Shown: positions 28,599 to 32,633 of the stretch, one piece after another | Layout of the letters: every line of letters starts with the position of its first letter | Numbering within the stretch: position 1 is the stretch's first letter | Origin: a virus | DNA length: 37,200 bases | Direction: 5' to 3' (one strand) | IMG/VR virus record: IMGVR_UViG_3300035703_000221 | Location: 1-37,200 of that record | Notes under the pieces: generated by a model | The model's database searches: none | Told to the model about the DNA's origin: nothing | The model's input: only the letters and a program-made list of their open reading frames with translations | Position numbers and translations under genes: made by a program

Positions 28599-29453
28599 AT
28601 GGCTATTGACAACTTCATTCCCGAAATCTGGTCGGCTGCGGTCGAAACAGAGTTCCTGGCGGCTCAGGTCGTCATCCCCACGGTGAACGGCAAGTACGAC
28701 GGTGAAGCGACTCGTGGAAACACGGTCAAGATCACCGGTGCTGTCACCCCGACGATCACCGACTACTCCTCGAGCCGCACCGTCACCGCTGAGGCGATGA
28801 ACGACGACGGCCAAGACCTCGCCATCGACCAGGAAGAGGCGTTTGCGTTCATCGTTGACGACATCGACCGGGTGCAGGCGGCAGGCACGATGGAGGACTG
28901 GACTGCTTCGGCTGGCCGTGCTCTTGCGGAGTCGGCGGAGGACTACCTGCTCAACAAGTTCCTGACCGAGTCGTGGACGTTGAACGTGACCGGCGCTTCG
29001 CCGCTCACCATCGACTCATACGACGACGCGAAGGCTGCGGCTCTCAAGGTTCGCACGTTCCTGAACAACAAGAAGATTCCGACGAGCGACCGGTTCCTGG
29101 TCGTCAACCCGGCCTTCTCGGAGTACCTGGTGGATGGCCTGTCGGAGTCGGCGCTTGCGTCGGCTGAGAACGAACTGCGCAACGGGCAGATTGCCCGCAT
29201 TTGGGGCTTCAACGTGCTTGAGTCGCCGCTGCTTGGCGACCAGAGCAAGCCCACCTGTGTTGGCTACCACACTGCGTCGGCGGCGTACGTCGGCCAGATT
29301 GCGCAGACGGAAGCGCTTCGCCACCAGACGAAGTTCGCGGACATTGTTCGCGGCCTGAACGTCTACGGCGCGAAGGTGACCCGTCAGGTTGCTATCGGTT
29401 CGTTCGTTTCCGGTGGTGTTTCGCAGAACGCATTCAGCTCGTTCCTGAGCTGA
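28599..29453 (+). CDS. Major capsid protein
   Basis: A 284-residue protein of HK97/P22-like fold. The N-terminus (AIDNFIPEIWSAAVETEFLA) and middle (VRTFLNNKKIPTSDRFLVVN, then FSEYLVDG) are typical of actinophage capsids. No long N-terminal delta domain, in line with a separate scaffold. AAGGGCC precedes the ATG. It is followed after only 12 bases by a strong hairpin and then a glycosyltransferase. Confidence 0.92.
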   Translation: MAIDNFIPEIWSAAVETEFLAAQVVIPTVNGKYDGEATRGNTVKITGAVTPTITDYSSSRTVTAEAMNDDGQDLAIDQEEAFAFIVDDIDRVQAAGTMEDWTASAGRALAESAEDYLLNKFLTESWTLNVTGASPLTIDSYDDAKAAALKVRTFLNNKKIPTSDRFLVVNPAFSEYLVDGLSESALASAENELRNGQIARIWGFNVLESPLLGDQSKPTCVGYHTASAAYVGQIAQTEALRHQTKFADIVRGLNVYGAKVTRQVAIGSFVSGGVSQNAFSSFLS

Positions 29454-29465
29454 CCTGAGTGAATC

Positions 29466-29515
29466 CCGAGGCGGGTATGCACGTTACAGCTTCTTTGGTG
29501 TCATACCCGCCTCGG
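29466..29515 (+). promoter_or_regulatory. 13-bp hairpin over glycosyltransferase start
   Basis: CCGAGGCGGGTAT (29466-29478) pairs perfectly with ATACCCGCCTCGG (29503-29515) across a 24-base loop. It holds the ribosome site (GAGGCGGG) and the first two bases of the ATG at 29477. It would hide the start of the glycosyltransferase in the mRNA and could limit its level beside the highly made capsid protein. Confidence 0.8.
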
Positions 29516-30391
29516 CGGTTCATCGGTTCCGAACTGATGACCCACCGCATGTTGCAGGCCCTACAGGGTCGTGGGCATTCAGTCGAAGTGTGGACGCAAG
29601 ACAAAGACTCCCCGCGCGAGTGGGAGGGCATTCCGGTTCGCTACGGCGGACATGAAACACCTGCGGGTGATGTGTGCGTGTACCACCCAGACTGGGCGAA
29701 CCCGGTCGAGGGGTTCACTGGTAAGCGTGTGGCGGTCTGTCACAACTCGCGTATGGCAGTTGAGATTGGCGTGTACAACACGCGCCCGGATTTGCTGACG
29801 GTCAACAGCGAAGTAATGCGCCGCGAGCTGCGGCATGGTCGGCAAGTTGTCGTGCATCCTCCGGTGGAACTGCCGATGGTGCCGCGTAATGGTTCGCGGG
29901 TGACGGTTGTGAACTTGGAAGAGTCGAACAAGGTTGGCCCGTTTTGGGAGATTGTGCGGCTCATGCCTGACGTTGATTTTTTGGGTGTCAAGGGTGGCTA
30001 CGGGAAGCAGTCTGTGCCTCGAGGTCGGCCCCGCGGAAACGTGACGGTCATTGACCATGTTTCTGCCGGCGAAATGGCTGACCGGGTGTGGGCTGAAACG
30101 CGGGTGCTGTTGGTGCCTAGCGCTACGGAGTCGTGGAGCATGGCCGCTTCTGAAGCAATGTCGCACGGTATTCCTGTGATTGCGAACCCGTTGCCGGGAC
30201 TAATTGAGAACTTGCAGGGTGTCGGGTTGTGGGCTGACCGTGAGCAGCCGTGGCAGTGGGTTCAACAGATTCGCACCGTACTTGCGGGGTGGGATGACTA
30301 TTCAAGGGCTGCGCTTGAGCGGGCAAAGTTTCAGGCCGCACGGTTTGACCGTGAAGTGACTGCATGGTGTGAGGAAGTGGAGCGGCTATGA
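29477..30391 (+). CDS. Glycosyltransferase GT4-like, capsid-linked
   Basis: A 304-residue protein with a GT-B fold. N-terminal: HVTASLVSYPPRRFIGSELM then a Rossmann half; C-terminal: VLLVPSATESWSMAASEAMS, HGIPVIANPLPGL, the usual GT4 donor-binding motif with its E. It sits directly after the major capsid gene and before the head-tail adaptor, an unusual place for an enzyme. The GTG at 29459 is a possible alternative start, but the ribosome site fits the ATG at 29477. It probably glycosylates capsid or tail proteins; phage-encoded virion glycosylation is known in mycobacteriophages. Its translation is likely held back by the hairpin. Confidence 0.85.
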   Translation: MHVTASLVSYPPRRFIGSELMTHRMLQALQGRGHSVEVWTQDKDSPREWEGIPVRYGGHETPAGDVCVYHPDWANPVEGFTGKRVAVCHNSRMAVEIGVYNTRPDLLTVNSEVMRRELRHGRQVVVHPPVELPMVPRNGSRVTVVNLEESNKVGPFWEIVRLMPDVDFLGVKGGYGKQSVPRGRPRGNVTVIDHVSAGEMADRVWAETRVLLVPSATESWSMAASEAMSHGIPVIANPLPGLIENLQGVGLWADREQPWQWVQQIRTVLAGWDDYSRAALERAKFQAARFDREVTAWCEEVERL

Positions 30392-30936
30392 CAAACCTTG
30401 CTGACCAGACAGACGCGACAGCGTTTGGTTACGGCACTATCGCGTCTGCGATGTTCAAGCGTGCGTCAGCGCGTGTGCGTGGGTATGTGCGACAGACGAT
30501 CACCGCGGACACGTCAGAGATCATTGTGCGTGGGCCAGTTGTGGTGTTGCCCCAACGTCCCGTGACAACAATCACGACGGTGAAGGACGTGTCGATCCCT
30601 GACGACCCGTACACCCTCGGATCTGATGAGTGGGTGTTGCGTTCGGGTGGCATTTTGGAAACGCCGAACTTTGGCGGAAACCTTGAGGTGACCTATTCGC
30701 ATGGGTTCGCCACGGTGCCAGATGAGGTCAAAGAGCTGGTGTGTGGTGTTGCGTCTCGGTTGGCGCAAATCAATGTGGCGGCGGCTACGGGTGTGCAGCA
30801 GGAGTCGGCGGGCAGTGAGTCGGTCACGTTCGGGTTCGATTCGTACAAGGCCATTAGTGACTTGACGGCAGGCGAAAAAGCGGTCCTAGACAGACTGTTC
30901 CCGAAGATGGCTAACGTGGTGGTGTTGCGCCCGTGA
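30388..30936 (+). CDS. Head-to-tail adaptor protein
   Basis: A 182-residue protein, first of the connector genes. Residues 14-110 have the adaptor pattern (strand-rich TTITTVKDVSIPDDPYTLGS, LEVTYSHGF) and a helical end. It should sit below the portal. ATGA overlap with the glycosyltransferase, GTGA with the next. Confidence 0.8.
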   Translation: MTNLADQTDATAFGYGTIASAMFKRASARVRGYVRQTITADTSEIIVRGPVVVLPQRPVTTITTVKDVSIPDDPYTLGSDEWVLRSGGILETPNFGGNLEVTYSHGFATVPDEVKELVCGVASRLAQINVAAATGVQQESAGSESVTFGFDSYKAISDLTAGEKAVLDRLFPKMANVVVLRP

Positions 30937-32592: not shown

Positions 32593-32633
32593 CCTGTGGG
32601 GGGCTGGTCATGCCTCGGGTGGCCCCCCACAGG
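32593..32633 (+). terminator. Strong hairpin after major tail gene
   Basis: CCTGTGGGGGGC (32593-32604) pairs perfectly over 12 bp with GCCCCCCACAGG (32622-32633). TTCTAACTCTTTT follows. It lies between the major tail and the tail chaperone genes, a common spot for termination that keeps major tail mRNA high. Confidence 0.8.

Follow-up and report, generated by a model that had tools for sequence, protein, structure and literature searches.

A predicted RNA hairpin that may sequester the start of a capsid-linked glycosyltransferase gene in a probable actinophage

The start of a glycosyltransferase (GT) gene that follows the major capsid gene in a 37,200-base virus record from IMG/VR (here called the window; approximately 60% G+C) lies inside a stable predicted stem. 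In our view, the stem probably acts in cis, within the late (virion) message, as an RNA hairpin that spans the capsid-GT junction, is maintained by selection, and sequesters the ribosome binding site (RBS) and start codon of GT. Because the start is buried again and again in related loci, compensatory changes link the two arms, native arms match each other best, and control gene starts give flat results, the fold was very probably selected.

The stem and its genomic setting

The window has a gene order typical of siphoviruses: terminase, portal, protease, scaffold, capsid, GT, head-tail adaptor, stopper, major tail protein, and tape measure. Its capsid protein matches those of phages of Streptomyces, Mycobacterium, and Brevibacterium, and the host is therefore likely an actinobacterium. 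Profile matches (Table 1) identify a major capsid protein upstream and a GT4-like glycosyltransferase downstream, in agreement with the capsid and glycosyltransferase named in a preliminary description of this DNA. The latter has a GT-B C-terminal domain with an EX7E motif, read as ESWSMAASE in the translation. The two genes are adjacent and co-oriented, and 23 nt (13 to 23 nt in relatives) lie between the capsid stop codon, TGA at 29451-29453, and the ATG of GT, a start that is backed by the start positions in relatives. An upstream GTG at 29459 was rejected as the true start, since its Shine-Dalgarno (SD) interaction is weak (-1.9 vs -5.9) and the relatives begin at the equivalent of the ATG. 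In relatives without GT, whose capsids are 46 to 55% identical, the capsid gene directly precedes an adaptor-like gene. GT therefore looks like an addition between the capsid and adaptor genes.

Table 1. Features at the capsid-GT junction of the window
Feature	Coordinates	Strand	Remarks
Major capsid protein gene	28599..29453	+	PHROG 267 major head protein, E 7e-52; Pfam P22_CoatProtein, E 1e-6
Outer 5' helix, TGAA	29460..29463	+	Can lengthen the stem via TTCA at 29519-29522; lost when a terminating ribosome is modeled
5' arm of stem	29466..29479	+	Includes GAGG at 29468-29471; last bases are the GT start codon, ATG at 29477-29479
GT gene (GT-B, GT4-like)	29477..30391	+	Pfam Glyco_trans_1_4, E 2.5e-9; phrog_26352, E 7e-48
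Loop, 22 nt	29480..29501	+	GT codons 2-8 plus the first base of codon 9
3' arm of stem, within GT coding sequence	29502..29515	+	Codons for S-Y-P-P-R; compensatory changes relative to L088
Conserved GT segment, possible second hairpin	29519..29546	+	In competition with the outer TGAA helix
Head-tail adaptor gene	30388..30936	+	PHROG 442 head-tail adaptor; start overlaps the GT stop (ATGA)

The arms, CCGAGGCGGGTATG (29466-29479) and CATACCCGCCTCGG (29502-29515), form a 14-bp inverted repeat with 100% complementarity. The preliminary description had called the stem perfect and 13 bp long; it is indeed perfect, and its length is 14 bp. Other parts of that description held as given. Exactly 12 nt separate the TGA from the stem, and the ribosome site and ATG are both hidden in the 5' arm, with GAGG five nt before the ATG and the arm terminating exactly at the G of the start codon. 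Described as the longest perfect stem seen at a gene start, it proved to be the longest in the whole window and the only one of at least 13 bp (loop up to 60) on the + strand. Twenty Markov-shuffled windows contained no stem of at least 13 bp and 0.2 stems per window of at least 12 bp.

The minimum free energy (MFE) of positions 29440-29540 is -50.4 kcal/mol (z = -6.05), a value equaled by 0 of 200 dinucleotide shuffles. With gene starts called by simple rules and a thermodynamic folding model (37°C) that includes neither proteins nor co-transcriptional kinetics, the GT start ranks first of 49 called gene starts in the energy required to open the RBS and start codon (22.6 kcal/mol; the next is 16.0 and the median is 7.4), and its start codon has an unpaired probability of 0.001 to 0.002. 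A second hairpin within GT (TTCATCGG..CTGATGA) becomes possible once the outer helix opens; it may simply mirror the conserved peptide FIGSELMT.

Several other identities were considered for the stem and rejected. It is not an intrinsic (Rho-independent) terminator, because it has a 22-nt loop and its tail, CGGTTCATCGG, has no U-tract; a terminator scan lists no site there. Nor is it a known RNA family, as no Rfam covariance model matched the window at gathering score. A repeated operator or DNA-binding site was likewise set aside: arm copies with at most 3 mismatches number 7 where 3.9 are expected, which is not above chance, and the sequences of the relatives differ.

Start burial and probable selection in relatives

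The same capsid-GT order is found in four viral-contig relatives (L004, L005, L006, and L088), with GTs 57 to 62% identical, and in L089 (the same locus as L095) GT lies behind a different actinophage capsid. In all six loci with a capsid-GT gap of 13 to 23 nt, the window and these five relatives, GT has the least accessible gene start in the locus. The start codon pairs with GT's own codons, fully in the window, L004, L005, L006, and L088, and in L089 at G1 and mostly at G3. In five loci, the G of the start codon is the last base of the main helix's 5' arm, despite the variation in gap length.

The partner of the start codon shifts among these loci. In the window and L088, the start pairs with +26 to +28 (register A), and two-sided compensatory changes distinguish the two loci at -2/30 (GC vs AU) and -8/36 (AU vs GC). 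In L004, L005, and L006, it pairs with +37 to +39, a His codon (register B), with two-sided changes at -1/40, at -6/45, and at +1/39, where a GTG start is matched by CAC and an ATG start by CAT. L089 uses a third register. Compensatory changes of the kind that mark a start-sequestering hairpin are thus present, on few sequences: six junctions are informative, two or three per register. The comparison of stem pairs in relatives proposed in the preliminary description therefore shows that sequestration recurs, with covariation.

The match between arms was assessed by hybridizing all possible combinations of 5' and 3' arms. The native one was the best of 5040 permutations for seven loci, and also the best of 720 for six loci and of 120 for five; p-values from such small permutation sets depend on related sequences. 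The same arm swap at nine neighboring control gene starts in the same phages had no effect (ranks of 56 to 112 of 120 or 8 to 21 of 24). When the spacer upstream of GT was shuffled, p was 0 of 500 in the window, L088, L006, and L089, 0.006 in L005, and 0.042 in L004. Synonymous codon resampling gave opening-energy p-values of 0.002 for L088, 0.016 for L004, 0.074 for L005, 0.004 for L006, and 0/500 for L089.

In the window alone, with the upstream arm and the protein fixed, synonymous resampling gave a p of 0.016 for MFE, and the opening energy was not extreme (p = 0.11), a result of the GC-rich conserved motif YPPRR being encoded in the 3' arm. It is the relatives, not the window alone, that carry the case for selection. 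This window result and the coding constraint on the 3' arm are what would be expected if a GC-rich spacer paired by chance with the conserved YPPxRFIGSE codons and had no function. We find that account very improbable, since it is opposed by the upstream-shuffle results, the first rank of the GT start in every short-gap locus, the native arm match, and the flat controls.

Start burial is not a general property of the GT family. In L093, where GT lies behind an adaptor-like gene and its start overlaps the upstream stop, no significant start hairpin was found (p = 0.43 and 0.19). A plasmid scan recovered Streptomyces phage-plasmids with the capsid-GT order (L110 and L112); in L110, the GT frame opens at a TGATG over the capsid stop, and no unusual structure was found there (z = -0.1). 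The absence of a start hairpin from these overlapping starts is as expected if the overlap itself provides coupling. Among named phages, only a distant GT match was found, in Streptomyces phage TurkishDelight, and its GT start also showed no unusual structure (z = +1.36).

Some of these loci have peculiarities of their own. In L110 (2956-3061), from the phage-plasmid of Streptomyces sp. NBC_01005, GT is probably annotated approximately 105 nt too short, its ATG overlapping the capsid stop. On the reverse strand of L089 (L095:2085-2600), the GT frame runs for 158 codons before it breaks and apparently resumes in another frame, through sequencing error or decay. TurkishDelight gp20 (L084) is one large protein with two GT-matching regions, apparently two GT units fused in tandem; its gene belongs to the virion operon and lies three genes downstream of the capsid gene. 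Two Alcaligenaceae loci (L002 and L003) contain GT-matching fragments, with 27-residue matches.

Possible consequences of a closed start

The 5' arm of the hairpin is made of the short intergenic spacer and the start codon, and the 3' arm of GT codons for S/Y-P-P-x-R-F-I. Hairpins at start sites make fresh 30S initiation rare. Once folded, the hairpin would block fresh 30S initiation at GT, so little GT would be made, mainly by ribosomes fresh from the capsid gene, through 70S or 30S scanning or through initiation while the 3' arm has yet to be transcribed or to refold. The outcome would be few enzyme molecules per many capsid subunits, which would suit a catalyst acting on an abundant substrate. 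Reduced fresh initiation through burial of the start is described for coupled gene pairs (PMC12548453). We infer folding in vivo, repression, dependence on capsid translation, and the capsid as the substrate of GT. According to Freeman et al. 2023, as cited in PMC11256854, some mycobacteriophage capsids may bear glycans.

The preliminary description proposed that ribosomes finishing the capsid gene could open the stem or not, so that GT would be made in a fixed low ratio to capsid. We modeled a ribosome on the capsid stop with its 3' edge at +9 to +12 and the RNA up to that point held single-stranded. In L005, L006, and L089, the SD region was largely freed (partly to fully in L089) and the start codon stayed mostly paired. 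In the window, the 14-bp core and the start codon remained fully paired (unpaired probability of 0.001 to 0.002), as they did in L004 and L088. Opening by capsid-terminating ribosomes is thus weakly supported, because the stem of the window lies just outside the ribosome footprint, and simple unfolding by a terminating ribosome would not be enough there. Release would instead require ribosomes that scan, unwinding by the ribosomal helicase, or initiation while the RNA is being transcribed. In addition, a recent review of coupling reports a negative correlation between coupling and predicted structure immediately past the stop codon of the upstream gene (PMC12548453). With the footprint falling short of the core stem and post-stop structure weakening coupling, the release step is uncertain. 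Tight silencing of GT is the best reading, and the hairpin might simply silence the gene. GT could plausibly be made at a low, capsid-dependent level; it is also possible that the gene is almost fully silenced under most conditions.

Start-sequestering hairpins and coupled gene pairs are both textbook kinds. Translational coupling by RNA unfolding has been described for phage f1 VII-IX, MS2 coat-lysis, and Escherichia coli rpmI-rplT (reviewed in PMC12548453), and the capsid-GT junction resembles these systems in its co-oriented neighbors, short gap, downstream start within a predicted hairpin, and abundantly translated operon. In the best-supported unfolding cases, f1 VII-IX and MS2 coat-lysis, the upstream frame runs through or beside the inhibitory structure, whereas the core stem in the window lies wholly past the stop, at the ribosome edge, and its 3' arm is downstream coding sequence. 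The junction is also similar to Cluster K mycobacteriophages, in which inverted repeats are tied to translation starts: the SAS/ESAS elements occur at many genes, the ESAS consisting of 17-bp repeats upstream of a conserved 13-bp sequence (PMC3203893). Unlike the ESAS, the stem in the window occurs at a single junction, belongs to no repeat family, and has a coding 3' arm.

In the MS2 coat-replicase operator, the start codon of an enzyme gene is held in a stem-loop just after the coat gene. The window has the same layout, with a loop that would be free for contact, and the stem-loop could accordingly be imagined as an operator through which a phage protein, for example capsid or scaffold, holds back GT translation or sets its timing. 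We give this idea little credence. The loop and stem sequences and the register vary among relatives, which have no bulge or loop motif in common, and no second arm copy beyond chance is present in the window. The window also differs from MS2 in being from a double-stranded DNA phage, and a protein-binding role for its stem is hypothetical.

If the GT start is indeed sequestered in this way, the junction would show how a tailed phage can use translation to tie a modifying enzyme to the capsid, its likely substrate. It would also offer a clear example of selection on start accessibility, seen in covariation that shifts register within protein-coding sequence. No description of this capsid-GT junction was found in the open-licence literature, although this is weak evidence.

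Hairpins after capsid genes

Relatives without GT, those with capsids 46 to 55% identical, have a strong GC hairpin after the capsid stop, a point absent from the preliminary description. Like the stem in the window, these hairpins lie just past the stop, are of comparable strength, and have no adjoining U-tract; they differ from it in standing alone, with a tight loop and the next start free, whereas the stem in the window contains the start codon. Capsid 3' flanks reach -25 kcal/mol or lower in 28 of 32 cases (some duplicates and the GT loci included), compared with 15% of 281 other gene ends. Post-capsid hairpins are also present in the isolates Zeta1847, Cappuccino, Sycamore, and DrManhattan, and the major tail gene in the window, L004, and L005 has a similar hairpin within 3 to 4 nt of its end.

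These observations favor a reading that we regard as unlikely but serious, in which the stem is chiefly a post-capsid message element, either a barrier to 3'-5' decay or an attenuator that keeps capsid mRNA above that of the downstream genes. The spacer in GT phages would be too short for a stand-alone hairpin, so the 3' arm would fall within GT, and occlusion of the start would be a tolerated side effect. Against this reading, the stem keeps its position relative to the GT start codon and not relative to the capsid stop, and the start codon itself covaries. Phages with a short gap and no GT hide the next start less (opening energies of 7.6 to 15.6 vs 12.7 to 28.7 kcal/mol), and the stem, with its 22-nt loop and no U-tract, is not an intrinsic terminator.

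Closure of the GT start, the function that we favor, and a role in the capsid message are compatible. Given the hairpins after the capsid gene in GT-less relatives and after the major tail gene, some of the selection may be on the capsid message. Hairpins behind abundant virion genes therefore look like a general device, possibly serving mRNA stability or attenuation, and the stem at the capsid-GT junction may be the version found there. A composite scenario can be offered tentatively, as possible but doubtful in its entirety: selection would have acted on the closed GT start and not on its sequence, the stem would have slid between registers along one coding stretch, GT would be made only by ribosomes leaving the capsid gene and hence in a fixed ratio to its substrate, and the hairpin would double as the end hairpin of the capsid message. 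What is new here is the conserved but register-shifting occlusion, together with the link to post-capsid hairpins. The latter suggests that actinophage hairpins placed directly behind the genes for the most abundant virion proteins form a broader class that has been little described.

Strong stand-alone hairpins without a U-tract just after the capsid gene were seen in the GT-less actinophage loci L008-L036, L053, L099, L102, L103, and L104. In Microbacterium phage Zeta1847, the post-capsid stem, as read from the sequence, is apparently perfect over approximately 18 bp. The second-longest perfect stem of the window (12 bp; 32593-32633) begins 3 nt past the major tail protein stop and has a T-rich tail. 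A comparable hairpin occupies the same place in L004 and L005, and L006 has one approximately 30 nt later.
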